From: Halococcus sediminicola | Lineage (GTDB): Archaea > Halobacteriota > Halobacteria > Halobacteriales > Halococcaceae | Direction of reading: 5' to 3' | Assembly (NCBI RefSeq): GCF_000755245.1 | Contig: NZ_BBMP01000026.1 | Coordinates: 186,001 to 250,000 of the forward strand | Length of the DNA: 64,000 nt | Shown here: piece by piece, positions 4,070-21,380 of the stretch | Layout: every line of letters starts with the position of its first letter | Numbering within the stretch: position 1 is the stretch's first letter | The notes under the pieces: model-generated | Told to the model about the DNA's origin: nothing | Seen by the model: only the letters and a program-made list of their open reading frames with translations | The model's database searches: none | Program-made: the position numbers and the translations under genes

Positions 4070-5173
4070 CTACTCCCCGGCCGGCGTCCCACGTCCGGAC
4101 CGGCGTTCGCGGCGTACGCCCTCGTCGAACGGGTCTTCGAGTTCACCCATCACCGCCTCGAAGGCGTCGGTGGCGGTGAGCAGGCCGACGATCTCCTCTC
4201 CCTCGGTGACGAGCGCGAGCTCCTGGTTTTCCTCTTGGAAGCGGTCGATCGCGTCGCTGACCTCTTCGTCCATCGGGAGCGTCATCGGCTCCGTGGCGAG
4301 GTCAGCGATACCCACAGCGCCGCTCGTGAGGTCGTCGTACCGGTTCGTGACCGTCGGCAGATAGACGATGCCCCGGAAATCGTCGAGGTTCTCGCCCACC
4401 AGCGGATACCGCGAGTGGGAGTGCTCGTCCATGACCGCGAGGTTTTCGCCGGGCGTGTTTTCCGTCGAGAGCGCCACGACATCCTCCCGGTCGACCATGA
4501 CGGTGCGGACCGGCACGTCGCCGGCGACGAGCGCGCCCAACACTTCCTGCTGGCGCTCTTTCGGCACGTCGGTGTTCCCGAGCACCGCCTCGAAGCGCCT
4601 GTGCAGGTCGGCACGGCTGTTGACTTCTTCATCTCCGGATTCGAGCCACGCACCGGTCATCTCGATGCCGAACAGCTCGAGCGTCCGCTTCGCGAACGCG
4701 TCGCCGACCCGCAACAGCGGCCAGATGGCACGCGTGAACCAGTACAGCGGGGTCGCACCGTACCGACAGACCTGCTGTGAGCGCTCGACGCCGAGGTAGG
4801 TTGGGGCCTGCTCGCCGTGGGTGAGATGGAGCAGGTTGATGATGAGAAAGCCCACGACTGCACCCGCGCCGACCGACGCGAGCACCGTGCCGGCGAACAG
4901 TGGCTCGAAGATCGCCGCCAGCGCCGGTTCGGCGACGATCCCGACCGCGATCGACGAGGCGGTGATGCCGATCTGACACCCGGTCAGATATATCTCGAGG
5001 CTCTGGGTCATCTCCCAGGCGCGTTCGAGACCGCTCACTCCCGGTTCGACGAACTCCGACTCGGTGTACTGCTGGGCGCGCGTCAGCGCGAACTCGACGG
5101 TGACGAAGAAGCCGTTAGCGAGGATGAGCGCGAGACCGGCGAGCAGTCGGATCGTGATCTCGGGAGCGTTCAT
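4070..5173 (-). CDS. DUF21/CBS (CNNM/CorC-like) membrane protein, copy 1
   Basis: A 367-residue membrane protein of the CNNM/CorC type. The DUF21 transmembrane domain (about residues 5-175) starts with the helix LLAGLALILANGFFVTVEFA, and a CBS pair occupies the C-terminal half (about 205-345). The family is linked to Mg2+ homeostasis. The conserved GExxPK signature is altered to GEQAPTYLG, so the usual lysine is missing. No CorC_HlyC C-terminal domain follows; the tail is short and basic. It is translationally coupled to the upstream paralogue (ATGA overlap at 5170-5173). About 138 bp of its CBS region is nearly identical to copy 2. Confidence 0.88.
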   Translation of the reverse strand: MNAPEITIRLLAGLALILANGFFVTVEFALTRAQQYTESEFVEPGVSGLERAWEMTQSLEIYLTGCQIGITASSIAVGIVAEPALAAIFEPLFAGTVLASVGAGAVVGFLIINLLHLTHGEQAPTYLGVERSQQVCRYGATPLYWFTRAIWPLLRVGDAFAKRTLELFGIEMTGAWLESGDEEVNSRADLHRRFEAVLGNTDVPKERQQEVLGALVAGDVPVRTVMVDREDVVALSTENTPGENLAVMDEHSHSRYPLVGENLDDFRGIVYLPTVTNRYDDLTSGAVGIADLATEPMTLPMDEEVSDAIDRFQEENQELALVTEGEEIVGLLTATDAFEAVMGELEDPFDEGVRRERRSGRGTPAGE

Positions 5174-6276
5174 GCCGGATCACTGTCCGAACCGGGCGTT
5201 CCCTCGCGCCCTCTGGCCCGCTGATAGGTGTCGAGGGGATCTTCGAGGTCACCCATCACGGTTTCAAAGGCGTCGGTGGCGGTGAGCAGGCCGACGATCT
5301 CCTCTCCCTCGGTGACGAGCGCGAGCTCCTGGTTCTTCTCTTGGAAGCGGTCGATCGCGTCGCTGACCTCTTCGTCCATCGGGAGCGTCATCGGCTCCGT
5401 GGCGAGCGCCTCGATTGCGACCTCGCCGTCACGGAACTCCTCGAAGCGGTTGGTGAGCGTGGCGAGATAGACGATCCCTCGAAGATCCCCGTCGCCGTCG
5501 AACAGCGGGAAGCGCAGATGCGGGTTTTCCTCGACGACCGCGAGGTTTTCCTCGGGTGTGTTCGCCGTCGAGAGCCCGGCGATGGCTTCCTTCTCGACCA
5601 TGACATTGCTAATGGGCATCTCGCCGACCGCGAGCGCGTTCATCACCTCCTCGTGGCGCTCGTCGGGGAGGTCGCCCTCGGCGAGCACCGAGCCGAGCTG
5701 GCGGTGGAGGTCGGCCCGCCCTTCGATGACGTCGGCCTCCGATTCGAGCCACGCGCCGGTCATCTCCACGCCGAAGAGCTTGAGCGTCCACTTCGCGACT
5801 GCGTCACCCAGATCGAGGATCGGTCGAATGACGCGCGTGAACCAGTACAGCGGGGTCGCGCCGTACCGACAGACCTGCTTCGAGCGCTCAACGCCGAGGT
5901 AGGTGGGGGTCTGCTCGCCGTAGACGACGTGAACGAGGTTGACAACGAGGTAGGCGAGCAACACGCCCGCGCCGATCGACGCGAGCGCCGTCCCGCCGAA
6001 GAGTGGTTCGAAGATCGCCGCCAGCGCCGGTTCGGCGACGATACCCAGCGAGATGCTGGCGGCGGTGATGCCGACCTGACACCCCGTGAGATAGATCTCG
6101 AGTTCCTCGGTCATCGCCCACGCGCGTTCGAGACCGGTGACGCCCTCCTCGACGAACTCCGATTCGGGATACTGGCGCGCACGAGTCAGCGCGAACTCGA
6201 TGGCGACGAAGAAGCCGTTGGCGAGGATGAGTGCCAGACCGGCGAGAAGTCTAGCGGTGATTTCGAGCGGTTGCAT
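5170..6276 (-). CDS. DUF21/CBS (CNNM/CorC-like) membrane protein, copy 2
   Basis: A 368-residue paralogue of the next gene, with the same layout: DUF21 membrane domain, then two CBS motifs ending near VTEGEEIVGLLTATDAFE. It also has the variant GEQTPTYLG in place of GExxPK. The middle of the two proteins (linker and first CBS) has diverged while the last CBS segment is almost identical. Tandem arrangement with a 4-bp stop/start overlap implies coupled synthesis and perhaps a heteromeric complex. Ion transport or regulation is inferred from the family. The start at 6276 (MQPLEITARLLAG) aligns with copy 1. Confidence 0.88.
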   Translation of the reverse strand: MQPLEITARLLAGLALILANGFFVAIEFALTRARQYPESEFVEEGVTGLERAWAMTEELEIYLTGCQVGITAASISLGIVAEPALAAIFEPLFGGTALASIGAGVLLAYLVVNLVHVVYGEQTPTYLGVERSKQVCRYGATPLYWFTRVIRPILDLGDAVAKWTLKLFGVEMTGAWLESEADVIEGRADLHRQLGSVLAEGDLPDERHEEVMNALAVGEMPISNVMVEKEAIAGLSTANTPEENLAVVEENPHLRFPLFDGDGDLRGIVYLATLTNRFEEFRDGEVAIEALATEPMTLPMDEEVSDAIDRFQEKNQELALVTEGEEIVGLLTATDAFETVMGDLEDPLDTYQRARGREGTPGSDSDPA

Positions 6277-7170: not shown

Positions 7171-8295
7171 ATGAGCGAAACCACACGCGAAGACGAGACC
7201 GCCTCCGCCGACGAGCGCACACGATCGCCTGTCGACAGCAACGACCGCGGGAACGGGTCGGTTCGTCCGTCCCGTCCCACGGACGTCGTCGCGCGAAACG
7301 GGGCAGCCGCTGCTCGCGATCACGATTATCGAATCGACATCGAGCACGATCCGCCACCTTTCCAGTCCTGTGAGGTGTTGGTCGCGATTCCGGCGTACAA
7401 CGAGGCGTCGACCATCGGCGACGTCGTCGAGCGGGCACGCGAGCACGCCGACCGCGTCCTCGTCGTCGACGACGGCAGCGACGACGACACCGCCGACAGC
7501 GCGGCGATGGCCGGCGCGCTCGTCAGCGAACACCGACGGAATCGGGGCTACGGAGCTGCCCTGAAGACCGCGTTCACGACCGCACAGCGCCTCGACGCAT
7601 CCCACCTCGTCGTCCTCGACGGCGACGGTCAACACGACCCCAATGACGTTCCCCGGCTGGTCGAGACCCAACGGGAGACCGCCGCCGCCCTCGTCATCGG
7701 CAGTCGGTTCGTCGAGGACGCCGCCTCGGACGTACCGCTCTACCGTCGCGTCGGTCTCGTGACGATAAACCTCCTCACGAACCTGAGCATGGGTGTCGTC
7801 CGCGCCGACTCGCGCGTGAACGACACCCAGAGCGGCTTTCGGGCCTACGACCGCGCGGCGATCGCGACGCTCGCCGAGGACGCGAGCATCGGTGACTGGA
7901 TGAGCGCCAGCACCGACATCCTCTATCACGCCCACCAGTACGACTACGACATCGCGGAGGTCCCCATCGAGGTCAGCTACGACGTCGAGAACCCGAGTAC
8001 GCACGCGCCGGTCTCTCATGGTGTGGCGCTCGTGCGGAACATCCTGAAGACCATCGAGCGCGAGCGCCCGCTGACGGCGCTCGCCGTCCCGGGGTTCTCG
8101 CTCACCTTCGGGGGACTGGGCTTTGGCTACTGGGCGACGGTCAACTACATCCAGTCGGGAACCTTTCCGTTCGGACTCGCGCTCATGGCCGTCTTCCTCA
8201 CGCTCATCGGCATCTTCGCGTGTTTCACCGCCATCGTGCTCCACTCGTTGAGCACCTACTTCGAGAGCGCCAGACGCGAGGGGGCGCTGCGATGA
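7171..8295 (+). CDS. GT2 family glycosyltransferase with two C-terminal membrane helices
   Basis: A 374-residue GT-A enzyme of the dolichyl-phosphate-sugar synthase type. A disordered acidic N-terminal extension (about 1-65) precedes the nucleotide-binding core (VLVAIPAYNEAS at 69-80, VVDDGSDDDT at 98-107) and the DxD motif D150-G-D152 in VVLDGDGQHD. Two hydrophobic helices near the C terminus (about 304-360) anchor it. It probably loads a sugar from a nucleotide donor onto a polyprenyl phosphate at the inner membrane face. It is first in an operon whose next gene overlaps its stop by ATGA. Similar in layout to the haloarchaeal Agl polyprenyl-phosphate GT2s; donor unknown. Confidence 0.88.
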   Translation: MSETTREDETASADERTRSPVDSNDRGNGSVRPSRPTDVVARNGAAAARDHDYRIDIEHDPPPFQSCEVLVAIPAYNEASTIGDVVERAREHADRVLVVDDGSDDDTADSAAMAGALVSEHRRNRGYGAALKTAFTTAQRLDASHLVVLDGDGQHDPNDVPRLVETQRETAAALVIGSRFVEDAASDVPLYRRVGLVTINLLTNLSMGVVRADSRVNDTQSGFRAYDRAAIATLAEDASIGDWMSASTDILYHAHQYDYDIAEVPIEVSYDVENPSTHAPVSHGVALVRNILKTIERERPLTALAVPGFSLTFGGLGFGYWATVNYIQSGTFPFGLALMAVFLTLIGIFACFTAIVLHSLSTYFESARREGALR

Positions 8296-9200
8296 GCGCG
8301 CCGGCGAACGTCCTCTCGTTCGATGTCGAGCACTGGCACTCGGCGACGCTGCTCAGCGACGCGGTGACCGAACCGGCATCACACATCGAGCGGTCGGTCG
8401 ACATCGTCCTCGACGTGCTCGACGCCCACGACGTGCAGGCGACGTTTTTCGTCGTCGGCGAACTCGCCCGCGAGCACCCGGACGTCGTCGCCCGCATCGC
8501 CGACACGGGCCACGAGATCGCCTCACACGGCCACACCCACCGCCCGCTGTTCGATCTCGACAGGGAGGCGTTCGCGACCGAACTCGAGCGCAGCGCGACG
8601 GCCATCCACGACGTCACGGGAGCGGCTCCGGTCGGGTTTCGCGCGCCGAACTTCTCGGTGACGCGACGCACCCGGTGGGCGATCGAGATCCTCGAAGCGG
8701 CGGGCTATCGCTATGATTCGAGCGTCTTCCCCGTTCGTACGCCGATGTACGGTGTGAGCGGCGCGCCGATCCGGCCCTACCGCCCCGACGCGACCGCACC
8801 GTTCGAGGAGCGCGCCGAGGGTGGTCGACTGGTCGAACTCCCGCTGGCCGTGTTCCATCCCCGATTCAGGCTGCCGGTCGCCGGCGGGTTCTACGCACGC
8901 CTCCTGCCGACGTGGCTGCTCCGGCGCGGCATCGCCACTCTCAACGCGCGCGGCCTGCCGGCGACAATCTACTTCCACCCGTGGGAGTTCAACCCGGCGG
9001 TCGGGACCGCCGTCCATCGCACGTCCGTCCCGGCGACCGAACGCTTCGTCAGCGCCCACGGCATCGACGGACTGCGGGCCACGCTCGAAGCGCTGCTCGA
9101 CGAGTTCCGCTTCGAGACGGCCGAAACCGTCGCACGCGAGTACGTCCGTGATGACCGTCACGACAGGGTAACTCGGCCCAAGGCCGGGGGGCAACGATGA
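8292..9200 (+). CDS. Polysaccharide deacetylase (NodB-fold)
   Basis: A 302-residue metal-dependent carbohydrate esterase of the CE4 fold. All family motifs are present: the catalytic aspartate D11 in SFDVEHW, the metal ligand pair H79/H83 in ASHGHTH, the RAPNFS motif, and a late FHPWEF histidine. It resembles the XrtA/exosortase-associated deacetylases that occur with exopolysaccharide genes. No signal peptide is visible, so it is predicted to act in the cytoplasm or at the membrane on lipid-linked N-acetyl sugars. Start chosen at 8292, overlapping the GT2 stop (ATGA). A longer in-frame start at 8220 would overlap the GT2 by 76 bp. Confidence 0.88.
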   Translation: MSAPANVLSFDVEHWHSATLLSDAVTEPASHIERSVDIVLDVLDAHDVQATFFVVGELAREHPDVVARIADTGHEIASHGHTHRPLFDLDREAFATELERSATAIHDVTGAAPVGFRAPNFSVTRRTRWAIEILEAAGYRYDSSVFPVRTPMYGVSGAPIRPYRPDATAPFEERAEGGRLVELPLAVFHPRFRLPVAGGFYARLLPTWLLRRGIATLNARGLPATIYFHPWEFNPAVGTAVHRTSVPATERFVSAHGIDGLRATLEALLDEFRFETAETVAREYVRDDRHDRVTRPKAGGQR

Positions 9201-9400
9201 GCCTTCAGGACTCGCCGCTCTGCCCGCAACACTCCGCGCGGCAGCCAGTCCAGCCCCCTTGTCCGGCGTGTCGGTACGAACGGCGGCTGGTCATCCACGA
9301 TCACCACGTTCGGGCGCTCGAAGAGCGTGTCGAGCGCCTCGAAGCCACGCTCGATGCGCTCGAACCGTCCCGGGCGAGTGCGCCGAGGGCCGACCCATGA
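9197..9400 (+). CDS. Small CxxH/CxxC peptide with coiled coil
   Basis: A 67-residue protein not recognised by family. It has a potential zinc knuckle, C9-x2-H12 and C22-x2-C25 (CPQH ... CPAC), then a predicted short coiled coil (about residues 38-60, HVRALEERVERLEATLDALE). It is locked in the operon: its ATG overlaps the deacetylase stop and its stop overlaps the FemAB-like start, both as ATGA. That coupling argues it is real and made in step with both enzymes. A scaffold or adaptor role is inference. Confidence 0.7.
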   Translation: MSLQDSPLCPQHSARQPVQPPCPACRYERRLVIHDHHVRALEERVERLEATLDALEPSRASAPRADP

Positions 9401-10428
9401 CCGAGGGCGACGCGCTGACGGTGCGGTCGGTGTCACCGGCCCGTGACGCCGAGTGGAGTGCCTTTGTCGAGAGCCACCCGGCCGCGACGGTGTTTCACAC
9501 CGCCGGGTGGGCGAGTGCCGTCGAAACGGCCTTCGGCTACGACCCCGCCCATCGGTGGCTCGCCGACCGCTCGGGAGCGGTTCGTGCGGTGATACCCGGC
9601 TTCGCCGTCGGCGAGGGCCTCGGCTCCAGTGTGCTCAACCCGTTCTGTGAGTACGGCTTCCCGCTCGTCGACGAGGACATTTCCGACGCGGCGGTGCTGT
9701 CCGCGCTCGACGACGGACGGACGCGAATCGTCAAGGACGCCGGCTGGAGCGGCGTGAGCGGCTACCGGTCGACCGGCTACGGCGGCGTTCCGACCGGGTC
9801 GGCCATCCGACTGGCGCTCGACAGGCCCTTCGAAACCCTCCGTGAATCGGCGTTCGACAGGGACGTCCGCCGTTGCGTGCGTACCGCCCGCGACCACGGC
9901 GTCACGGTGCGGGACGGCACGGTCGAGGAGTTCTACCCGCTGTATCTCGCCACGATGCGCCGGCTCGGCAGTCCGCAGTTTCCCGAGCGGTTCTTCACCG
10001 CGCTCGCGGACGAACTCGGCACGGGGGTCACCATCCGTCTCGCCGAGCGTGCGGGCGAGACCATCGCCGGGGTACTGCTGTTCGAGCACGGCGAGACCAC
10101 AATGGTCTGGACGCCCGTCTCGCGGCGCGCTCACTGGGAACACCGCCCGAACCACCTGCTCTACGCGGAGGCCATCGAGCGCGCGTGTGCAGCCGGGCGC
10201 TCGACGGTGGATTTCGGCCGGTCGCGGCGCGAGTCGAGCGTTCACGGGTTCAAAGCCCAGTTCGGCGGCGTCGAGTATCCGCTGATGAGTTTCGTCACGC
10301 CGCCCCACCACGCCTCCCGGGCGTCGCTCGACGGCTACGGGCGGCTGGCACCGCTGACGCAACGGCTGGCACCGCTGATCACCCATCCGACCATCGGCCC
10401 GAAACTCAAGAGGGCAATCCATGAATGA
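9397..10428 (+). CDS. FemAB-like / GNAT-fold (Acetyltransf_6) transferase
   Basis: A 343-residue protein of the FemAB/BioF2-like double-GNAT family, recognised from its N-terminal FHTAGWASAVETAFGY segment and the C-terminal stretch around NHLLYAEAIERACAAG, VDFGRSRRES and GFKAQFGG. Bacterial FemXAB proteins transfer amino acids from aminoacyl-tRNA to peptidoglycan lipid intermediates. Homologues also occur in XrtA/PEP-CTERM exopolysaccharide loci, where the donor is unknown. Archaea lack murein, so the acceptor here is probably the surface glycan or its lipid carrier. Start 9397 (ATGA overlap with the small peptide gene). Its last 8 bp overlap the DHHA1-like gene. Confidence 0.82.
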   Translation: MTEGDALTVRSVSPARDAEWSAFVESHPAATVFHTAGWASAVETAFGYDPAHRWLADRSGAVRAVIPGFAVGEGLGSSVLNPFCEYGFPLVDEDISDAAVLSALDDGRTRIVKDAGWSGVSGYRSTGYGGVPTGSAIRLALDRPFETLRESAFDRDVRRCVRTARDHGVTVRDGTVEEFYPLYLATMRRLGSPQFPERFFTALADELGTGVTIRLAERAGETIAGVLLFEHGETTMVWTPVSRRAHWEHRPNHLLYAEAIERACAAGRSTVDFGRSRRESSVHGFKAQFGGVEYPLMSFVTPPHHASRASLDGYGRLAPLTQRLAPLITHPTIGPKLKRAIHE

Positions 10429-11086
10429 GAAACTACTGACCATCGCATCGGGCATCGCACTCGCCGGAACCAGCCTCTACTGGCGACGGCGCGAACGGAT
10501 AGTGACCAAGAGTCTGACCGCGACCCGGGACTGGGAAGCGAACGCGACCGGCGAGACCGACCGGGCGGTCGGGCGGGCAGCGAGGGAGGCGGCCGACCAC
10601 CTCGACGCAGGCGTTGAGGACCTGCCCGAGCGGGTGCGGGCCGTCGACGAGGAACGGCGCGACCTGCGTCGGGAACTCGATACGGTCCGGGAGCGCTGGG
10701 CCGACGCGCTGTGGCGCGCTCGTTCTGACACCGACGCCGGCGACGCCGACGATGGCGGGCGGGGCGACCCATCGGTCTTTGTCGTCGAGTTCGAACACGG
10801 CGAACTGCCCGACGCGCGGGCGTTCGCAAAGCGTGCCATCGAGGACGAAGCCATCACGCTCGTGGCCGCCCACGGCGACGATTCCTTCGCCGTCGCGGTC
10901 GGCGAGGAGCTGTCCGAGGTGTTCAGCGCCGAAGACATTGCCGACGAACTCGCCGACGAGGTCGGTGGTGGGGCGGGCGGCACCGATCGACTGGCCGCCG
11001 GTGGCGGGGCGACGGGCGCGCTGGGCGACGGCTGTCGGCGCGTGCGGGAGCGACTCTTCCAATCGGATGCGGTGCACGCTGCATGA
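10421..11086 (+). CDS. Membrane-anchored DHHA1 (AlaRS C-domain-like) protein
   Basis: A 221-residue protein. A hydrophobic N-terminal segment (about 5-21) is followed by a basic stop-transfer (WRRRER), a coiled coil (about 67-100), then a domain (about 118-212) that reads like the DHHA1/C-Ala domain at the end of alanyl-tRNA synthetase: DDSFAVAVGEEL, a helix with SAEDIADELADE, and a Gly-rich loop (residues 182-196) comparable to the synthetase Gly-rich/AQGG region. No aminoacylation, editing or DHH catalytic domain is present. The coiled coil before DHHA1 also matches AlaRS architecture. It overlaps the FemAB-like gene by 8 bp. A tRNA-binding helper for that transferase is inference; DHHA1 domains also occur in nucleases. 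Confidence 0.75.
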   Translation: MNEKLLTIASGIALAGTSLYWRRRERIVTKSLTATRDWEANATGETDRAVGRAAREAADHLDAGVEDLPERVRAVDEERRDLRRELDTVRERWADALWRARSDTDAGDADDGGRGDPSVFVVEFEHGELPDARAFAKRAIEDEAITLVAAHGDDSFAVAVGEELSEVFSAEDIADELADEVGGGAGGTDRLAAGGGATGALGDGCRRVRERLFQSDAVHAA

Positions 11087-11136
11087 GTCGCCGGCGAGCG
11101 ATCCACGACCAGCCCTCACCGGTAGACGACACATGA
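11083..11136 (+). CDS. Possible 17-aa coupled mini-ORF
   Basis: MSRRRAIHDQPSPVDDT. Its ATG overlaps the stop of the DHHA1-like gene (ATGA at 11083) and its TGA overlaps the start of the FkbM gene (ATGA at 11133). It would bridge an otherwise 46-bp gap with continuous translation. Two precise ATGA junctions by chance are possible in GC-rich DNA, so it may be only a coupling device or nothing. Confidence 0.3.
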   Translation: MSRRRAIHDQPSPVDDT

Positions 11137-11975
11137 CGCGCATCGAGCTTGGCGGGATGAAAGACCGTCTGCTCGCCGTTCCGTTTCGGCTGGCCGCCCG
11201 CTACGGCGTTCCGCCGGCGGTCGCCGCAGCGTACTGGCACATCGACCAAGCGTACTGTCGGGCACGGATGGCGGCTTTGGGCGGAACGATGGATGTTCGC
11301 GTCGGCGACGAGACCGTCACTTTCGGGCTGTCGACGCGGATGGAGTACCGGCGTGCGCGGGATTTGGGGGGCGAACGGGCTGTCATCGCGGCGCTGCTCG
11401 ACGACCTCGACGGCACCGAGACCGTCTGGGACGTCGGCGCGGGCGTCGGCACGTACACCTGCTTCGTTGCAAACGCGCTGACGAGCGGTCACGTCGTCGG
11501 CTTCGAACCCGAGCCGACCAATCGGGCGCGTCTGCGCACGAACCTCGCGAACAACGCACTCGACGAACGTTGGACGGTGCTCCCGGTCGCGCTCGCCGAC
11601 CGCGACGGCACCGGAACGCTCTCGTCGGAGTTCGTCGAGGCGGGCGGCGGTCACCACTTCCTCTCGACGGCCGAGACCGGCCGGCGGGTCCGGACGAGGC
11701 GCGGTGCGTCGCTGGTCGAGGATGGGTTCGACGCGCCGGACGTCCTCAAAATCGACGTCCAAGGGGCCGAAAAACTCGTTCTCGACGGCATGGGACCGCT
11801 CCTCGACACTGTGGAATCGATCTATCTCGAAGTCCACCGCGAGAAATGCACCCGATACGGGACTACCGCCGAGGCGGTCGAGGCGTCACTCCGTGGTGCG
11901 GGGTTTTCGCTCACGGCCTTCGGGAAACCGACCAATCGACGGTCGGGCGTGTATCTGCTCCGTGCATGGCAATAA
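11133..11975 (+). CDS. FkbM-family SAM-dependent methyltransferase
   Basis: A 280-residue class I methyltransferase. SAM-binding motif I is VWDVGAGVGTYTCFV, motif II is VVGFEPEPTNRARL, and the FkbM hallmark KIDVQGAEKLVLDGM follows (in KIDVEGAE form in most members). FkbM enzymes O-methylate sugars or other hydroxyls, and in glycan loci they modify the polysaccharide. It is the last gene of the coupled operon that starts at 7171. I chose the ATG at 11133 because it lies in the ATGA junction; an internal ATG at 11157 (MKDRLLAVPF) is also possible. Confidence 0.87.
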   Translation: MTRIELGGMKDRLLAVPFRLAARYGVPPAVAAAYWHIDQAYCRARMAALGGTMDVRVGDETVTFGLSTRMEYRRARDLGGERAVIAALLDDLDGTETVWDVGAGVGTYTCFVANALTSGHVVGFEPEPTNRARLRTNLANNALDERWTVLPVALADRDGTGTLSSEFVEAGGGHHFLSTAETGRRVRTRRGASLVEDGFDAPDVLKIDVQGAEKLVLDGMGPLLDTVESIYLEVHREKCTRYGTTAEAVEASLRGAGFSLTAFGKPTNRRSGVYLLRAWQ

Positions 11976-12106: not shown

Positions 12107-13354
12107 ATGACACGGAAACCGAACACGCGCGAGTCCGTTCTCCTGCCGATCAACGATTCGGGGAGTAGCCTTACGTGTTTGCGGTCGCTCGGGAGTCGGG
12201 ACGTGCGGACGATCGCCGCCTCTGAACGTCGAGACAGACCGGCGTTCGCCTCGCGCTACTGCGACGAGAAAATCATCATACCGTCGCCGTACGACGATCT
12301 GATCGCCTACAAGGACGCCCTCCGCACGCTCGCCGAGCGCCCGGACGTCCGGACCATCGTTCCTCACCGTGAGATAGATGCGTTCGTGCTGGCGAAGTAC
12401 GAATCAGAGTTCGAAGATCATGTCGAGACGCTCTGGCCCTCCTTCGAGCAGGTTCGGACGGTCCACGATCGACTGCTGTTGGCCCATGCTGCGCGGGACG
12501 CCGGCGTTCCGATCCCGGAGACCTACTCGTTCGACGCGGTCGAGGACTGGGACCGCGAACTCATCGTCAAGCCACGCTACTCGTTTCTGACCGGCGAGTA
12601 CGTCGATTCGCTGTCCGAACGCGACTGCGAGGGCAAGATGGATCCGGTGTACGTACCGGCCGGGACCGAGCCGAGTCTGGATGAGATCCACGACGAGATG
12701 CACGAACCGGGCGTCGATGCGCCCGACCACATTCCCATCGTCCAGGAACTCGTCAGGAGCACGGAGCACGAGTACGGCTTTCGCGGACTCTCCGAGCACG
12801 GCACGACCGTACTAACTTGCCAGAAACGACAATTGCGGGGGAAATCGTATGCGGGCGGCGCGAGCGTCTATCGCGAGACGATGGCCGATCCCGACATCGA
12901 TCGATTGGGACGGCAGATCCTCGAACACCTCGACTGGCACGGGCTCGCGTCGGTGCAGTTTCTCTGGGATGACGAGAGGGAGAGATACGTCTTCACCGAG
13001 ATCAACCCCCGTGTCTGGGCCTCTCTCGAAATGGACGTGCTGGCGGGTGCAGACTTCCCCTACGGACATTGGCTGGTTGCGACCGGCCAGTCGGAGCAGA
13101 TCGAACGAGAATACGAGGCCGGCGTCGGCAACCATCTCCTCGTCGGCGAACTACAGTATCTTGCGAGTGTCCTCCGGGAGCGTTATCCGTCCATCGAGCG
13201 TCCCCCGTTCGGTCGCGCGCTCCGAGATGTTCTCTCGTCGTGTTACGAACAGCCACACTTCGATTACATCCACTTCGACGACCCTGGTCCGTTCGTCCGC
13301 GGCGTGCGCAACCAACTCGTCAGCGGACGGTCGGAGCAGACCGCTGGACAGTGA
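12107..13354 (+). CDS. ATP-grasp carboxylate-amine ligase-like protein A
   Basis: A 415-residue ATP-grasp protein of the PylC/carbamoyl-phosphate-synthase-like carboxylate-amine ligase group. The N-terminal pre-ATP-grasp domain contains CLRSLGSRDVRTIAASE. The central ATP-binding part includes LIVKPRYS, and the Mg2+/ATP site is FTEINPRVWASLEMDV. Such enzymes form amide or peptide bonds through an acyl phosphate. It has its own promoter region (11976-12106) and faces a paralogue tail to tail 176 bp away. Position between FkbM and the flippase suggests amidation of a uronic acid or peptide attachment to the glycan; substrate unknown. Confidence 0.85.
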   Translation: MTRKPNTRESVLLPINDSGSSLTCLRSLGSRDVRTIAASERRDRPAFASRYCDEKIIIPSPYDDLIAYKDALRTLAERPDVRTIVPHREIDAFVLAKYESEFEDHVETLWPSFEQVRTVHDRLLLAHAARDAGVPIPETYSFDAVEDWDRELIVKPRYSFLTGEYVDSLSERDCEGKMDPVYVPAGTEPSLDEIHDEMHEPGVDAPDHIPIVQELVRSTEHEYGFRGLSEHGTTVLTCQKRQLRGKSYAGGASVYRETMADPDIDRLGRQILEHLDWHGLASVQFLWDDERERYVFTEINPRVWASLEMDVLAGADFPYGHWLVATGQSEQIEREYEAGVGNHLLVGELQYLASVLRERYPSIERPPFGRALRDVLSSCYEQPHFDYIHFDDPGPFVRGVRNQLVSGRSEQTAGQ

Positions 13355-13530: not shown

Positions 13531-14718
13531 CTACCGGAGATACTGTTGTGCGCCGAACAAGAGAGGGCGGAGGTCGTCGAGATGTGAAAAATCGAAATGG
13601 GGGTGTTCGATACCGGAGCGGATCATTGCCCAGAGCGTCGCGCGGAGTGGCGGGCGCTCGACGTGAGGGGAACTGTCCCGAAAGAGGCTGACGAGATAGC
13701 CCAACTCGCCGTCGAGGCGATGGCAGCCGATACCGGTCTCGTAGCCCGGTTCGATCTTCTCCAACTGACCCGTTGCAGCGAGCCAGTAGTAGTACGGGAA
13801 ATCCGCGCCGGCCCGAACGGCCGCGGGCAGCGACTGCCACATCCGGGGGTTGATCTCGACGAGAACGAACTCCCCGGTATTTGCGTCCTCGATGTACTCG
13901 ATACACGCCAGTCCGTGCCAGTCGAGGTGGTCGAGCAGCGCCCGTCCCACCTGCTCGAGCTCGTCGATATACACCGACTCCCGATAGACGCCGCCACCGC
14001 CGGTGTAGGAGTTGCCGCGGATCTGTCGGTGCTGGAAGGTCGCGAGCGGTTTGCCGTGGTCGTACAGCGCGGCGAAGACGTACTCGTCGCCCTTCTCGAC
14101 GAACTCCTGGACGATTGGATCGTGGGCCATCTCCGTCCGGATCGCCGCTCTGTCCGGCTTGAGACCGGGTTCCGGATGGACGACCGTCTTTGTCACGTCC
14201 ATCGATTCGGGCGGGTACGAGTCGATGTAGTCGTTCGTCAGGAGGTTGTACCGCGATTTGACGATGGACTTCGCCGACCAGTCGTCCGTCTCGGAGAGCA
14301 GCCGCGTCTCGGGGACGGGCACGCCCGCTTCCGTGGCGGCCTCGGCCAGCTGGAGTCGGTCGTGGACCCGTTCGAGTCGCTCGAGTTCGGGCACCACGAG
14401 CGAGACGTGCGCTTCGAACTCGTCACGATACTTCGAGAGCAGGTAGGCATCCGTCTCCCGACAGGGGATGACCGTCGAGACGGCGCGCTCGGCGACGATT
14501 TCGAGGAGTGCGTTCCGGTAGGCCACCCAGTCGTCGAGCGGCGAGGGCACACGGACGAACTCCCCACAGTATTTCGAGACGAACGGTGCATTGGGCTCGT
14601 GAGCGACGCCGATGGTCGGGATCCCGCGCATGCCGAGCGAGCGGATGCACTGATACGCTCCGGATTGGCTGCCAGTCGTCACGAGAACGGCTTCATCCGA
14701 CATCGCTGTCTCGTTCAT
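13531..14718 (-). CDS. ATP-grasp carboxylate-amine ligase-like protein B
   Basis: A 395-residue paralogue of ligase A, alignable from end to end: CIRSLGMRGIPTIG, RVHDRLQLAEAATEAGVPVPET, SIVKSRYNLLTNDYIDSYP, and the metal site VEINPRMWQSLPAAV. It lies convergent to its paralogue, so the pair did not arise by simple tandem copying without inversion. A TATA-like element (reverse of 14737-14752) lies about 25 bp upstream of the ATG at 14718, favouring this start over ATG 14703. Likely role: ATP-dependent amide bond formation on a glycan or its precursor. Confidence 0.85.
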   Translation of the reverse strand: MNETAMSDEAVLVTTGSQSGAYQCIRSLGMRGIPTIGVAHEPNAPFVSKYCGEFVRVPSPLDDWVAYRNALLEIVAERAVSTVIPCRETDAYLLSKYRDEFEAHVSLVVPELERLERVHDRLQLAEAATEAGVPVPETRLLSETDDWSAKSIVKSRYNLLTNDYIDSYPPESMDVTKTVVHPEPGLKPDRAAIRTEMAHDPIVQEFVEKGDEYVFAALYDHGKPLATFQHRQIRGNSYTGGGGVYRESVYIDELEQVGRALLDHLDWHGLACIEYIEDANTGEFVLVEINPRMWQSLPAAVRAGADFPYYYWLAATGQLEKIEPGYETGIGCHRLDGELGYLVSLFRDSSPHVERPPLRATLWAMIRSGIEHPHFDFSHLDDLRPLLFGAQQYLR

Positions 14719-14845: not shown

Positions 14846-16264
14846 TCAGAACAACACCCGCGCCGTTGCAACTCGAACCCTATCGACCAGCACCAACAGC
14901 GCGACGGCGTAGACGACCGCGCCGACGGCCATGAGGAGGACGGTTTCGAGCAGGGGTAGCGAGGCCGTCGACGCCGGGAGCAACACGAGCAGACACGCGC
15001 CCATGACGAGCGCGGCGACGCCTTCAAGCAAGATCTCCCGGACCGGAACGGAGAAACTGATCAGCGATCTGATGTAGTGGTAGGACAGTCCCGTCTTGAG
15101 AACCATCGCGACGGACGTAGCGATAGCGGCACCGACCCAACCCACCGTGGCGATGGCGACGACGTTCAACGCCACGTTCACGACGACGAACGCCGCATTC
15201 GTCCGGAGGGTGAGGTCTGGTCGGTCGAGCGCGTCGATGACTTTTCCGAAGACCACTTCATAACTGTGCAGCAGCCGCGCGAGGATCAGGATGGTGACCA
15301 CCGTGGCTCCGACCCGGTACTCCTCGCCGAACATCGCGAGCAACGGCTCGGCGAGGATGATGCCGCCGACGAGACCCGGTATCGCCAGAATCCCGGTATA
15401 GACGAGCGATCGTTCGAGCAGGTCGGTGACGCGGTCGATGTCGCCTTGTGCCGCGAGGTCGCTGATGGTGGCGAACAGCGTCCGGCTGATCGCCGACGAG
15501 AGCAAGAAGAGCATACCAGTGATGCGCCATCCAAGTTCGTACACGCCGATGAGTGACTGTATGACGAACACGCCGAGCACGAGCGTGTCCGTCCAGACCC
15601 ACGCCTCGGTCGTCACCGTCCCGACCCAACTGTACTTGGCGAAGTGATAGAGGCTCCGAAAGTGTTCCACTGATGGTCGCTCGAGTCGTAGTGTGAACAG
15701 CAGCAGTCCCGCCCCAACGGCCAGCAGTTGACCGATAACGTAACCGGCGAGGACGCCGATCAGCCCGTAGTCGAGTGAGACGAGGACGACCCACATGACG
15801 AGTTGGCCGACGGCGTGGACGAGCGGAAGCACGCCGGCCCGAGCGACCTTTTTCTCGCCGATGAGGCCCGATTCGAGCGCCTGTCGCAGGAGATACGCCA
15901 GCGAGCCAACGAGCAGGAACGGTACCGCCATCCCGTGACCGACGTACGACGTGATCGGCTCCTGGAAACCGACGACGACGAGACCGAGGGGGACGAACAG
16001 CGACAGCCGGACGAGGAGTCCGGCGGTGAAGAACTCGTCCCGGTCGGTTCCCTCGCTGATCCGCTTCTGGGTCGCCTCGTTGACGCCGACGTTCGTCAGG
16101 AAATCGAGAACCCGAACGACCGCGACGAACAGCGAATAGATCCCGAGGACTGCCGGTCCCGTCGCCGCTGCGAGATAGAATACACCAAGAAAGATCGCGA
16201 TGGACATCCCGATCCGCGTGGCGAACGTCCCGAGCGAGGACTGGAGGAGTTTCGAGCCGTTCAT
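14846..16264 (-). CDS. Polysaccharide flippase (Wzx/MOP superfamily), first
   Basis: A 472-residue integral membrane protein with about 12-14 hydrophobic helices, of the oligosaccharide/lipid exporter (PST/Wzx) group. It begins MNGSKLLQSSLGTFATRIGM, followed by the first helix, and has the typical NVGVNEATQKRISEG loop after helix 2. It would flip the lipid-linked oligosaccharide made by this locus across the membrane. An in-frame ATG at 16384 would add a 40-residue basic extension. I prefer 16264 because it starts just before the first helix and has an A-rich promoter-like stretch about 30 bp upstream. It is divergent from the DUF1616 gene. Confidence 0.85.
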   Translation of the reverse strand: MNGSKLLQSSLGTFATRIGMSIAIFLGVFYLAAATGPAVLGIYSLFVAVVRVLDFLTNVGVNEATQKRISEGTDRDEFFTAGLLVRLSLFVPLGLVVVGFQEPITSYVGHGMAVPFLLVGSLAYLLRQALESGLIGEKKVARAGVLPLVHAVGQLVMWVVLVSLDYGLIGVLAGYVIGQLLAVGAGLLLFTLRLERPSVEHFRSLYHFAKYSWVGTVTTEAWVWTDTLVLGVFVIQSLIGVYELGWRITGMLFLLSSAISRTLFATISDLAAQGDIDRVTDLLERSLVYTGILAIPGLVGGIILAEPLLAMFGEEYRVGATVVTILILARLLHSYEVVFGKVIDALDRPDLTLRTNAAFVVVNVALNVVAIATVGWVGAAIATSVAMVLKTGLSYHYIRSLISFSVPVREILLEGVAALVMGACLLVLLPASTASLPLLETVLLMAVGAVVYAVALLVLVDRVRVATARVLF

Positions 16265-16507
16265 CCGGTGGAGGCGAGAGAGCCGAAATCGGCGAATTTT
16301 TTTGCTATCTCGCCGCTGTCGGATGCGGGTGATGACTGCCTCTCGCTTGTTTCCATACTCTCTCCACTCCCCTTTGCCACTCAACTATTGAGCCGTTCAA
16401 CCGGTCGGCACGGCGACACTCGTTGGCGCAATCGCGTGCACTGGCGAGCGGGCACTGCTGTTGACTGACTCGGCCGTCGATTGGGGAGGTGGGGTCGGGG
16501 GAGGGGG

Positions 16508-16558: not shown

Positions 16559-17110
16559 ATGGGCAAGCTTACCGATACACTCCGTCGTGGACGGGAATCG
16601 ACCGACACCGAGGGTCGCGCTGATACCCTGCTGTACGTCGTGCTCGCGGCCAGTCTCATCCTCGCTGCGGGGAGCGTCGGGTGGGTGGTCGCCGCCTCGG
16701 ATCGCGGCGATTCGTTCACTGAACTGTCGTTGCTGACCGAGAACGAGACCGGGGTGGCCGTCGGCGACGACTACCCAACGAGGATGGTCCAGGGTGAGGA
16801 GACACCGCTCGTGGTCGCCATCGGCAACCACGAACACCGGGCGATGAACTACACCGTCGTGGTCGAACTCCAGCGTGTCGCTCGGACGAACGACACCACG
16901 GTCATCAGTGCCGAGCGCGAACTTCGTCGGTTCACCGCACGTGTCGAGGCAAACGAGACCCGCCAGCAGCGCCTCGCGCTCGCGCCCTCGCTGACCGGAC
17001 CACGCCTTCGGCTGGCGTTTTTGCTTTACAAAGGCCCAGCTCCGGCCGACCCCTCGATGCGGACGGCCGACCACGAGGTCCACCTGTGGGTGGACGTGGT
17101 TTCGGAATGA
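16559..17110 (+). CDS. Stand-alone DUF1616-type membrane-anchored ectodomain
   Basis: A 183-residue protein. A short basic cytoplasmic N terminus (about 1-24) precedes one membrane helix (about 25-47) and an extracytoplasmic beta domain. The core of that domain (NYTVVVELQRV, LRRFTARVEANET, LRLAFLLYKG) matches the C-terminal domain of the full-length DUF1616 protein encoded at 59450-60571. Here the multi-helix half of DUF1616 is absent and the next gene encodes a large DUF2206 membrane protein, so the two may work as one split unit. Function unknown; DUF1616 genes recur in haloarchaeal glycosylation loci. Confidence 0.75.
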   Translation: MGKLTDTLRRGRESTDTEGRADTLLYVVLAASLILAAGSVGWVVAASDRGDSFTELSLLTENETGVAVGDDYPTRMVQGEETPLVVAIGNHEHRAMNYTVVVELQRVARTNDTTVISAERELRRFTARVEANETRQQRLALAPSLTGPRLRLAFLLYKGPAPADPSMRTADHEVHLWVDVVSE

Positions 17111-17192: not shown

Positions 17193-19412
17193 ATGGATCC
17201 TGATGACCGTCGCTCGACGCTGGCAGCATGGATGGTTTCGAAAAGCTCGTCCGCTCCCATGGTGGGGGTAGAACGAGCGGAGCCGGTAGCGGTTCTCGCC
17301 GTCGCTTGCTACCTGCTCGCTGTCGTCTTCGGCGCCGACGTGCTCGACATTGCCGTTGTCCGGACGGTTGCGGGGGTCGTCCTCTTGACCATCCTTCCCG
17401 GCTATCTGCTCGTTTCATCGTTGGGATTCGACGACGACTCACTCGGCCGGATCGCTCTCTACTCTGTCGGACTCAGCGTGCCTGTCGTGATCGCGACGGC
17501 TCTCGTGGTCAACTTCGCCCTGCCGGTACTCGGCGTCGATCGACCGCTCTCGGCGCGAACGCTAACGGCGGCCGTCTCGCTGCTCGTCATGGGGCTGGTC
17601 GTCGTCCGATACGGTCGGTACGGCGCTCGCAGTCGATCGCCACTCCGGCGGCTCTCGCTATCGGCAAGCGACTGGGTATTCGTCGGTCTGTTCACTCTTC
17701 TCCCCGCCTATTCGGTAGTGGCGACCGACTACGTGAACGCCATCGGCTACGAAAGCCCGGTCATCGCGCTGACGACGGCGCTATCGTTGGTTCCCCTCTT
17801 TCTCCTCTGGTGGCGTGGTTCGCCCATGCTCTATCCTTACGCCATCTGGTCGGTGGCAGTGTCGGTGCTGTTAGGGATGACGCTGGTCTCCGGGCATATC
17901 TGGGGGTGGGACATCCACTACGAGTACCACACCGCCGACACCATTCTTCGGAACGGGTACTGGGACCCGGTCCGGATGGATGCGACCAACTCGCTGCTGT
18001 CGATCACGCTGCTGGCGAGCATGTTCTCAATGCTCACCGGTCAGGAACTCGCATGGGTCTACAAGGCTGTCTATCCGCTGCTGGCCTCGCTACTGCCGGT
18101 CGCCATCTGGTATTTCGCACGGCGGCAGTTCGCCGATCGCTCGGTCGCCGTGCTCGCGCCGTTCGTCCTCGTGTTCTACTACGGCTTCTTCAAGACCATG
18201 CCCGACAAGCAGATCATCGCGGGACTGTTTGTGACTCTGGTGTTCGCCGTGCTCCTTGATGACGAACGCCCGACCACCAAAACGTGGGTTCTCGCCGGTG
18301 GGTTCGCCGTCGGTATGGTGTTGTCCCATTACGCCACGAGCCTGCTGTTCATCGGATTTCTGTTGTTCGCTCTCGCTGGCCGATACGCCCTCCGGGCGCT
18401 GCCGTCGGGCAAGGTTCCCACGGCCAGACTCACCAGACCGGCGTTCGTAGGGTTTGTCGGGATGTTCTGGCTGTTCTGGTATTGGCTCACGGCTTCGGGT
18501 GTGAACTTCTATCGCGTCCTCAATACGGGCGTCAGTACGGTCGAACAGCTGCTGACTCAATCCGCGTCAGGGCGAAGCGGCGCAGGCTATGCGACGATGG
18601 AGTTCGACTCGGTGCTCTGGGTGATCTACCAGTTCCTGCACGTGATACTCATCGGGCTTATCGGTATCGGCATCCTGCGAGCCGTCTACTCGCTGTATGC
18701 GGACCGCGAGACGCCTCAATCGGGCGAATTCGCCTTGCTCTCGATCGGCGCGTTCGCCTTTCTCGTCTCCTCGGTTCTGATGACGTTCAGTATGGGTTTC
18801 GACAGGATACTCCTGATCGTACTGTTCGTGCTGTCGCCGTTCACGGTCGTCGGTCTAACGACTTCTCTTTCGGTCGGCTCGTGGTCCGCTAGACGGTTCT
18901 CGCCAGCTTTCCGAGCGCGCATCGATGCCGTCCCGATCAGGAGTCTCTTCGCCGTGTTTCTCGCTGTCCTCTTCGTGTTCAGTTCGGGGACCGCGTTTGC
19001 CCTCGCCGGTGAGGAGGTACCGCCGTACAGCATCAATCTGAACGAGAGCGCCGGGTGGCCGGTATATAGCGATAGCGAGGTGACGGCTACTCGGTGGGTG
19101 ACGACACACGACGGTCCCGGCGAGCCGGAAGTCGCCGTCTACAACACGAAGCAAAACGTCAATAGCCGCGACGGGCTCCTGTTACAGGAAGTCCTCGAAA
19201 CTGAACACATAGAGCGGGTCTGGTTGGGAAAAACGGCCCTGGACGACTCCACGTACGTCTATCTGAGCGAAAAGCCGGTCGAGCGACCCGATGACGACAT
19301 TGACTACAATTATATCGACGCGCGGCAGACGCCGTTCTACCGGGAAACACTTGCTAGGGCGAATAAGGTCTATAGCAGCGACAACGCGTCGATCTACCAC
19401 GTCCCGCCGTGA
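17193..19412 (+). CDS. DUF2206-type large multi-pass membrane protein
   Basis: A 739-residue protein with about 14-16 hydrophobic helices over residues 25-600 and a C-terminal extracytoplasmic domain (about 620-739). It matches the haloarchaeal DUF2206 type, which resembles GT-C glycosyltransferases or polymerases: the loop after an early helix contains HIWGWDIHYEYHTADTILRNG with acidic residues typical of GT-C first loops. It would use lipid-linked sugar outside the membrane. A TATA-like ATTAATTATC lies about 35-40 bp upstream. The start at 17193 could be replaced by ATG 17232. It follows the split DUF1616 gene by 82 bp. Function inferred, not shown. Confidence 0.75.
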   Translation: MDPDDRRSTLAAWMVSKSSSAPMVGVERAEPVAVLAVACYLLAVVFGADVLDIAVVRTVAGVVLLTILPGYLLVSSLGFDDDSLGRIALYSVGLSVPVVIATALVVNFALPVLGVDRPLSARTLTAAVSLLVMGLVVVRYGRYGARSRSPLRRLSLSASDWVFVGLFTLLPAYSVVATDYVNAIGYESPVIALTTALSLVPLFLLWWRGSPMLYPYAIWSVAVSVLLGMTLVSGHIWGWDIHYEYHTADTILRNGYWDPVRMDATNSLLSITLLASMFSMLTGQELAWVYKAVYPLLASLLPVAIWYFARRQFADRSVAVLAPFVLVFYYGFFKTMPDKQIIAGLFVTLVFAVLLDDERPTTKTWVLAGGFAVGMVLSHYATSLLFIGFLLFALAGRYALRALPSGKVPTARLTRPAFVGFVGMFWLFWYWLTASGVNFYRVLNTGVSTVEQLLTQSASGRSGAGYATMEFDSVLWVIYQFLHVILIGLIGIGILRAVYSLYADRETPQSGEFALLSIGAFAFLVSSVLMTFSMGFDRILLIVLFVLSPFTVVGLTTSLSVGSWSARRFSPAFRARIDAVPIRSLFAVFLAVLFVFSSGTAFALAGEEVPPYSINLNESAGWPVYSDSEVTATRWVTTHDGPGEPEVAVYNTKQNVNSRDGLLLQEVLETEHIERVWLGKTALDDSTYVYLSEKPVERPDDDIDYNYIDARQTPFYRETLARANKVYSSDNASIYHVPP

Positions 19413-19605: not shown

Positions 19606-20883
19606 TTAGCCGACCAAATCGGTGCGTATGTCTTTCAACACATGCCTCGCATTTTCGAAGGTTATCGAGTAATCGACGGCGTTGGGTTCGGAAAATCGAC
19701 CCCGTTGCTCTTCGAACGTATCGGGAAGACTTTCCGACACATCGGCCGGAGTGAACATCGGCCGTCCGTACGTCACCGTCGGTGAGAAGTAACTCCGAAA
19801 GAATCTCGCTTGTTTTTGTAGCGTCCAGTTCTTTCGGGTGGCCGCCGACGATTGCCCGAGGAATTCGCATGGAAACACGTAGGCTGCCCGCTGAATCGGT
19901 GACCGTCGGTGAAAGACGATTCCACCCTTCGAGTCCCAGATGGACGCCGCCGCGTACGCGTCGGCCGAGCCTGTCTTTCCCCGCACGGCGAGATTAAGAT
20001 GGCCCCATACCTCCGAGCGAACTCTGCGGCCACGCGCCGGTGTCTCGTTCCAGAGATCCATGCCTTCGATGGCGCTGGGAACGGATCGTCCCTGTGCGGC
20101 GAGCGCCGTCGGGGCAATGTCGGTCCCGGAGACGGACCCCGGATACTCCACGTTTTCCGGGAGACCAGCACCGAGAAACACTGCCGGGACGTCCACAACT
20201 TTGGGAGCGAGAGGGTACAGATGGCCGAACCGTCCGCCGCTTTCGATTTCGCCGAGATGCTCCCCATGGTCCGCACTGAACATCACGAGCGTCCGCTCTA
20301 ACAGCCCACGCTCGTCGAGGTCGTCGACAAGCGAAAGAAACCGGTCGGCGGAACTGGCACAGTCAGCGCGGTACCGCTCGTGGAGAGTGTCTTTTCCGGG
20401 ATAGTCCGCGAAGAACTCCTTTCGTGTCTCGTAGACTCCGTTCGGGAATCCATATGGTGCGTGCGCACCGATGTCGAAGACGACGTGGACGAACGGCGGT
20501 TCGAGGTCTCCAAGCCACGACTCCTCGTCGAGATGGATCCACTGCAGCGGTGGCTTCTCGTCGTATTCGATGTACTGGGTCTTCGTATCGAACCCGACAC
20601 TAATGTCATCCTCCTCGCACAGCAATTCGGGTTTCGAGGGGAGTCGATCCGTTTCGCGCCACAATTGATGTGTGCCGGGATACCTTCCCGAAACGATCGC
20701 AGGAAACGAACTGTGCGAGCAGGTGCTCGGTGCGATCGCCTTCGCCGTTACCCCGCGCTTTCGAATCTTCTCGGGAAGCGAATCGTAGCGCATCGAGTCG
20801 GCGACAAAGACGAGCACGTTCTCGACGGTATCACTCGCCGCGACCGCCGACAGCGGAGTGCGTTCTTGTAGTGTGGAACTCAT
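19606..20883 (-). CDS. Sulfatase-family hydrolase/transferase 1 (Cys-type active site)
   Basis: A 425-residue alkaline-phosphatase-superfamily protein. The metal-binding start is VFVADSMRYDS (D29). The nucleophile region is STCSHSSFPAIVSGRYPG, where C55-S-H-S-S aligns with the C-x-P-S-R formylglycine motif but lacks the Pro and Arg. The second metal motif is SADHGEHLGE. No signal peptide is visible. It could hydrolyse or transfer sulfate or phosphate groups on the glycan. Start taken at 20883; a longer reading frame to 21315 runs through the insertion-sequence remnant and is not credible. GC and codon use look lower than in flanking housekeeping genes. Confidence 0.82.
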   Translation of the reverse strand: MSSTLQERTPLSAVAASDTVENVLVFVADSMRYDSLPEKIRKRGVTAKAIAPSTCSHSSFPAIVSGRYPGTHQLWRETDRLPSKPELLCEEDDISVGFDTKTQYIEYDEKPPLQWIHLDEESWLGDLEPPFVHVVFDIGAHAPYGFPNGVYETRKEFFADYPGKDTLHERYRADCASSADRFLSLVDDLDERGLLERTLVMFSADHGEHLGEIESGGRFGHLYPLAPKVVDVPAVFLGAGLPENVEYPGSVSGTDIAPTALAAQGRSVPSAIEGMDLWNETPARGRRVRSEVWGHLNLAVRGKTGSADAYAAASIWDSKGGIVFHRRSPIQRAAYVFPCEFLGQSSAATRKNWTLQKQARFFRSYFSPTVTYGRPMFTPADVSESLPDTFEEQRGRFSEPNAVDYSITFENARHVLKDIRTDLVG

Positions 20884-20982
20884 TCGCGTACGTAGTTCAA
20901 TACACTCACAATAGTCTATTGCGTGGTTAGATCGGTTTTGCACGTTGATGTGCGTGCGTAACGTTGGTGACGACGAAGACGG

Positions 20983-21337
20983 ATGATGCCGATCACGGGC
21001 TTCCTGTCGTGCACGCACGTCTTCGACGAGTTCGAGCCACTGTGGCCAGAGCAGCGCTATCGAGCAAAAACCTATGTTACCGGTCTTGTTGCGGCCAGCA
21101 CCAAGACCGTAGCGGGCACCGCACGCGAAGTTCTTCCGGCCGAAAGCAAACGCACCCTCAACGGATTCCTCGTCGAGTACGTCTGAGACGAAGAGCAGTT
21201 CAACCGCGAACGACAAGAGAAACTCCAGAAAGACGGTGAACGCGCTGGTCACGGGATGGCTACATCGTCCTCGACGACACGATTGCCGAGAAAACCGGGA
21301 CGAAGTCCCCGGCATCGGCCACTTCTACGATCATGCG
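20983..21337 (+). pseudogene. Decayed transposase remnant (IS701/IS4-like)
   Basis: N-terminal part of a haloarchaeal DDE transposase, recognised from MMPITGFLSCTHVFDEFEPL, RYRAKTYVTGLVAASTKTVA and DEEQFNRERQEKLQKDGE. A TGA at 21184-21186 breaks the frame. The product then continues in a second frame from 21243 (GYIVLDDTIAEKTG, with a candidate catalytic Asp) and a third from about 21305 (VPGIGHFYDH) before it ends at the TATA box of the next gene. The 495-bp space 20884-21378 holds nothing else I can support. Family assignment is from memory of similar proteins. Confidence 0.75.
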
Positions 21338-21338
21338 T

Positions 21339-21380
21339 TTATAAGGAACCAGTGAATATCCAATAACGTTCTCTCAGTAT
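21339..21380 (+). promoter_or_regulatory. Promoter of the sulfatase at 21379, shared element
   Basis: TTATAAGGAACC... ending in the ATG, with about 33 of 43 positions matching 16508-16549. TATA-to-ATG spacing of about 40 bp predicts a leader of roughly 10-15 nt. It begins exactly where the transposase remnant stops. Confidence 0.55.

Follow-up and report, generated by a model that had tools for sequence, protein, structure and literature searches.

A membrane-anchored C-Ala protein linked to a FemAB-like enzyme in Halobacteria: a candidate two-part, tRNA-dependent transferase for surface glycans

Why should the gene for a FemAB-like transferase in an archaeon overlap with one for a domain of alanyl-tRNA synthetase (AlaRS)? 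The two genes lie in the window analysed here, a 64,000-nucleotide stretch of a Halococcus sediminicola contig. An earlier note on this DNA placed a FemAB-fold gene at 9397-10428 (+) and a gene for a DHHA1 protein at 10421-11086 (+), the start of the second overlapping the stop of the first by 8 bp, and both frames and the overlap are indeed found there. The note also proposed that the pair moves an amino acid from tRNA onto a surface glycan and that this is a new kind of archaeal glycan modification.

The FemAB-like protein (343 aa) matches TIGR03019 (E = 1e-37), Acetyltransf_6 (4e-18) and the PF02388 FemAB model (5e-7), and it has a double GNAT fold according to its predicted structure. Its score against the TIGR03019 equivalog is 129.7 bits, below the curated cut-off of 260 bits. 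When the predicted structure (pLDDT 77) was compared with solved structures, with Foldseek also used, the best 11 were FemX, FemA and Sba18/Sbb17 (Z 22.3-23.5), and Z drops to 16.5 for the next structures. The alignments to FemX, FemA and Sbb17 span 264-280 residues. FemX, FemA and Sba18/Sbb17 are all aminoacyl-tRNA-dependent. By sequence, the family profile picks up Sbb17 (2e-9) and FemX (7e-7), with no CoA enzyme among the matches listed. Phe285-Lys286 (codons at 10249-10254, +) is invariant in all 20 FemAB members and aligns with Phe304-Lys305 of Weissella FemX, in which Lys305 is catalytic. The FemAB fold read earlier from this gene is borne out by these matches, and the enzyme probably takes amino acids from tRNA, as judged from a structural model and from sequence.

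The overlapping gene encodes a protein of 221 aa that scores, as a single protein, just under the PF02272 gathering cut-off of 25.9 bits (24.3 bits as protein, 26 in the genome frame), and its DHHA1 label therefore needed a test. Matches of the whole family remove the doubt: among 21 proteins, window copy included, 18 match PF02272 (E<0.01) and all 21 match the archaeal AlaRS model TIGR03683, which the window copy matches over residues 52-197 (E = 3e-7). The family profile aligns with the C-terminal domain of Archaeoglobus fulgidus AlaRS (2ZVF; E = 1e-16, positions 48-196) and with the tRNA-bound structure 3WQY (1e-15), in each case over both the helical and the globular parts. AlaRS is the only DHHA1 protein that this profile reaches by sequence. 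AlaRS C-Ala domains also rank first against the predicted structure (pLDDT 86; Z 11.5-14.6), followed by RecJ-type DHHA1 at about 10. Because the family profile, the TIGR03683 matches and the structural ranking agree, the product is a complete C-Ala domain of archaeal AlaRS type. It consists of a helical subdomain with a conserved R-W-A motif (approximately residues 45-106; 10553-10738, +) and a globular DHHA1 subdomain (residues about 118-214; 10772-11062, +). The DHHA1 label is thus right for one part of the protein and too narrow for the whole.

C-Ala is the module of AlaRS that binds the tRNA elbow (PMC10036535, PMC10485164). In the family described here, the globular domain and its Gly-rich loop are the most conserved part. 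The loop, GGGAGGTDRLAAGGG, occupies residues 182-196 (10964-11008, +), as had been claimed, and G183, G186, G187, A192 and G194 are invariant. It reads GGGAGG...LAxGGG in the family, versus GGGGGG...AQGGG in AlaRS and AlaX, and the Gln of AQGGG, kept in AlaRS and AlaX, is lost in nearly all C-Ala copies. The lysine of the GGKGGGK motif, which reads G18 in C. elegans C-Ala, is absent from the window copy and also from haloarchaeal AlaRS and AlaX. Because this lysine is absent and the glutamine is lost, it is possible that the tRNA specificity of the protein has been altered or lost. The domain is acidic, to a degree also seen in the C-Ala domains of archaeal AlaRS and AlaX, and in a small tree the family falls outside the AlaRS and AlaX group.

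Ahead of the C-Ala domain lies a hydrophobic segment (residues 5-21; 10433-10483, +) followed by RRRER, with the C-terminus predicted to be cytoplasmic. The segment and a YWxRRxR basic stretch recur in nearly all relatives. Mean hydrophobicity over 17 residues is low, 1.39, in the window copy and reaches 2.5 in other copies, so that the N-terminal membrane helix proposed earlier is a trait of the family that the window copy displays only faintly. By the positive-inside rule, the C-Ala domain would lie on the cytoplasmic side of the membrane.

Linkage between the two genes was surveyed in 391 Halobacteria genomes. FemAB (E<=1e-30) occurs in 18 of these, and all 18 carry the membrane C-Ala; the linkage that the earlier note had proposed to look for is complete. 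C-Ala genes are found in 19 genomes, full length in 18 and truncated by a contig end in one (G012), and FemAB adjoins every one of them. Even in genome G178, where the neighbouring FemAB has 27% identity and divergent orientation, the two remain adjacent. Of the 22 loci measured, 16 show an overlap of exactly 8 bp, two show one of 4 bp and three have a gap (two loci are counted twice). The hypergeometric value for co-occurrence is 4e-30, uncorrected for kinship. Pairwise identities of FemAB and C-Ala correlate at 0.96, as expected of genes that travel together, and fall to about 47% for FemAB and 25% for C-Ala with gene order kept, across at least six families. Carriers include Halococcus thailandensis, Halocatena marina, Halocatena salina, Actinarchaeum halophilum, Salinarchaeum sp. 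and other Halobacteriales. Beyond Halobacteria, the matches listed in a sample of the phylum are long frames consistent with AlaRS. A search of the available literature for work linking DHHA1 with FemAB found none.

Some individual loci deserve mention. Frames of 482 aa in genomes G056 and G177 were considered as FemAB-C-Ala fusions and rejected, being open-frame extensions only. In genome G127 (locus L040, 370-1496), FemAB is split over two frames by a frameshift, a sequencing error or pseudogene formation, and the downstream C-Ala gene is intact. The whole block of Halocatena salina resides on a 532-kb plasmid (NZ_CP096020.1), a location that hints at how the block may have spread so patchily.

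In the window, the pair is preceded by three genes on the same strand. A family 2 glycosyltransferase (GT2; 7171-8295, +) with a single long C-terminal hydrophobic stretch has PpgS and AglJ, which are polyprenyl-phosphate sugar synthases, as its nearest curated models, with scores below their cut-offs. An ATGA overlap joins it to a polysaccharide deacetylase (8292-9200, +) that matches PF01522 and DUF3473 and, below cut-off, the XrtA-type model TIGR03006; no signal peptide is seen in the deacetylase sequence. A small 67-aa CxxC/coiled-coil protein (9197-9400, +) then shares an ATGA overlap with each neighbour. This frame had been missed earlier, and its product has a homologue in H. thailandensis only (63%). 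Because the genes from GT2 to C-Ala are joined by overlaps, the five look like one translationally coupled unit.

The next gene of the conserved block encodes an FkbM-family methyltransferase (11133-11975, +), followed by an ATP-grasp protein, also conserved in the block (12107-13354, +), a second ATP-grasp protein (13531-14718, -) and a Wzx/MurJ-like polysaccharide flippase (14846-16384, -) whose annotated start may be too early. The order GT2, deacetylase, FemAB, C-Ala, FkbM and ATP-grasp, together with a flippase, recurs in several genera. A DUF2206 multi-span membrane protein (17193-19412, +) and a family 4 glycosyltransferase (GT4; 25738-26943, -) are recurrent neighbours of the FemAB/C-Ala block. 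The C-terminal part of DUF1616 is encoded by a separate gene (16559-17110, +) before the DUF2206 gene. When tRNA genes were sought in FemAB/C-Ala clusters, only one was found, a tRNA-Ile at the edge of locus L133.

The position of the deacetylase directly upstream of FemAB has a counterpart in bacteria. There, TIGR03019 FemABs likewise lie directly beside TIGR03006 deacetylases in glycosyltransferase/flippase clusters and in the same order, and the exopolysaccharide loci of Nitratidesulfovibrio, Vibrio and Chelatococcus contain the deacetylase-FemAB pair without a C-Ala gene. The bacterial XrtA-type FemABs share a C-terminal GP tail and the FK motif with the haloarchaeal enzyme. Unlike in the bacterial XrtA system, FemAB and deacetylase of the window score under both curated cut-offs (TIGR03019 and TIGR03006). 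A search for exosortase with the PF09721 model gave no match at E 0.01 in the window assembly, which is 95.5% complete. These comparisons are consistent with a haloarchaeal system that would equal the bacterial deacetylase-FemAB module plus a tRNA-binding membrane partner. The FemAB C-terminal tail, GPxLKxxIHE, was considered as a docking site for C-Ala and rejected, because a similar tail with GP is present in bacterial FemABs that have no C-Ala; a tail of this type is missing from other FemAB paralogues of haloarchaea. A FemAB of broader type in Natronococcus sp. CG52 has no C-Ala nearby.

With FemX, FemA, FemB and MurM, the window enzyme has in common the double GNAT fold, the aligned catalytic lysine and a presumed aminoacyl-tRNA donor. 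The setting differs in that the host has no murein and that the tRNA domain is a separate protein; we know of no split, trans-acting tRNA recognition in FemXAB enzymes. S. aureus FemA (1LRZ) has an inserted coiled-coil arm that the window FemAB lacks. The closest solved relatives in sequence are Sba18/Sbb17. For these and for Orf11, all of the streptothricin group, the acceptor is a small molecule, unlike the glycan proposed here, and to our knowledge none has a C-Ala partner. Orf11, a FemX-like relative, adds glycine from Gly-tRNA to streptothrisamine (PMC12945691). MprF/aa-PGS enzymes also use aminoacyl-tRNA with a GNAT fold at the membrane, but their structural similarity to FemAB is clearly lower (Z 14-16) and their membrane domain is fused in cis. 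The C-Ala domains of AlaRS and type II AlaX share the helical and globular DHHA1 architecture and the Gly-rich loop with the window protein, which differs from both in having no catalytic or editing domain and a single N-terminal hydrophobic anchor.

We favor, with a probability of roughly 0.55, the reading that FemAB and C-Ala together form a transferase in two parts, which depends on aminoacyl-tRNA and serves a surface-polysaccharide pathway. The GT2 enzyme would load N-acetylhexosamine onto polyprenyl phosphate, and the deacetylase, going by its family, would free the amine of the lipid-linked sugar. Because no signal peptide is seen in the deacetylase, free amine, FemAB and tRNA would share one side of the membrane. 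The FemAB-like enzyme, for which fold and lysine are established and activity is predicted, would form an amide between the freed amine and an amino acid from aminoacyl-tRNA. The C-Ala protein, anchored at the inner face of the membrane, would hold the tRNA, with the CCA end reaching FemAB by the lipid-linked acceptor; this scheme predicts tRNA binding by C-Ala, a FemAB-C-Ala complex, the acceptor and the amino acid. The aminoacylated product would then be flipped across the membrane and become part of the surface glycan. The amino acid would likely be glycine or alanine: Orf11 with its Gly-tRNA donor and the N-glycyl-glucosamine found in the Halococcus wall speak for glycine, and the origin of C-Ala speaks for alanine. 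None of the three findings that the earlier note named as refuting its proposal was made: the C-Ala match holds, the linkage is complete in the genomes surveyed, and modelled fold and conserved lysine both fit a tRNA donor. The transfer suggested there, from tRNA to a surface glycan, would be the best reading. More tentatively, a tRNA-binding domain that stems from a synthetase may have been freed and membrane-anchored, and a glycan aminoacyltransferase may now require it as a subunit. Haloarchaea might in this way divert aminoacyl-tRNA from translation to the inner face of the membrane and N-aminoacylate deacetylated amino sugars, a route to glycans like those with N-glycyl-glucosamine.

Other readings give the C-Ala protein a different part. 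FemAB might handle aminoacyl-tRNA alone, as Weissella FemX does. C-Ala would then have lost tRNA binding and, as a dimerising scaffold in the membrane, would bring FemAB there or bind the glycan acceptor. In AlaRS, the helical part of C-Ala serves for dimerisation (PMC10485164), and the lost Gln, the different loop signature and the bacterial FemABs of this type without C-Ala all agree with such a scaffold. However, the globular domain and Gly loop would be superfluous in a simple tether, yet they are the most conserved part, and we regard this explanation as unlikely. Alternatively, the protein could be a quality-control or regulatory factor for tRNA that, for example, hands tRNA on to AlaX or lets FemAB act only when tRNA is in surplus, rather than a subunit that presents the donor. 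AlaX editing proteins do contain C-Ala, and theirs is a relative of the one described here, but the window protein has no editing domain and is encoded in a transferase operon, not near AlaX or AlaRS, which makes this role very improbable.

The donor itself could also be different. A FemAB-like N-acyltransferase dependent on acyl-CoA or another donor might re-acylate the deacetylated sugar, and the ligand for which C-Ala was recruited might be an unrelated nucleic acid or a nucleotide. Pfam names the catalytic domain Acetyltransf_6, and we know of no assay of any TIGR03019 enzyme; human C-Ala, moreover, binds DNA (PMC10485164). The structural gap (Z 22-23.5 for aminoacyl-tRNA enzymes versus 16.5 and below for CoA-type GNATs), the conserved FemX lysine and the constancy of a tRNA-binding partner all argue against this, and we hold it to be quite improbable. 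That the linkage is accidental or stems from one recent transfer has a negligible chance: the plasmid copy of Halocatena salina and the patchy distribution could be read this way, but the depth of divergence at constant gene order in at least six families and the retention of C-Ala beside the distant, divergently oriented FemAB of G178 speak against it.

If the favored reading of a two-part transferase is correct, the always linked and usually overlapping genes suggest that cells attach amino acids to surface sugars by way of the tRNA of protein synthesis. We know of no other archaeal surface glycan that is modified by way of tRNA, so this case would be the first, and C-Ala would have gained a new use. 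The pair would also be a candidate enzyme for the amino-acid-linked amino sugars whose presence in the Halococcus wall was reported in 1979 and for which we know of no enzyme. Independent support would follow for the idea that the widespread XrtA-associated FemABs of bacteria take amino acids from tRNA; we know of no demonstration of their donor. The claim of a new archaeal glycan modification must be narrowed, because bacteria have deacetylase-FemAB pairs without C-Ala and because N-glycyl-glucosamine was already known from Halococcus: novelty lies in the C-Ala partner tethered to the membrane, and the modification itself may not be new.

N-glycyl-glucosamine, known chemically in the Halococcus morrhuae wall since 1979, partly joins the domains of that wall as N-glycyl-glucosaminyl bridges, and glycine there amounts to 100 nmol per mg, compared with 7 nmol per mg in H. 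salifodinae (PMC4187196). It is the kind of product expected from a deacetylase and a glycyl transferase. The link from the locus to H. morrhuae is a lead, not a result, because the pair is present in 4 of 10 Halococcus genomes (H. thailandensis and three more), absent from the other 6, and has orthologues in other genera. A role as general Halococcus wall enzyme was rejected on the same count. In the Halococcus subgroup G001, G005, G006 and G008 (16S 98-99% alike; the 16S comparison is unreliable for G000 and G007, which were read on the opposite strand), there is no FemAB-like match whatsoever. This fits trace wall glycine if the subgroup is the H. salifodinae group.

The Halococcus wall is sulfated, and two sulfatase-superfamily genes lie near the cluster (19606-21315, -; 21379-22794, +). 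A second FemAB-like/GNAT protein (57809-58813, +), with a different C-terminus and no C-Ala neighbour, belongs to another glycan cluster of the window. Two tandem membrane proteins (4070-5173 and 5170-6276, -) are alike in length and N-terminus and overlap by 4 bp, and the second has a CNNM/CBS match.
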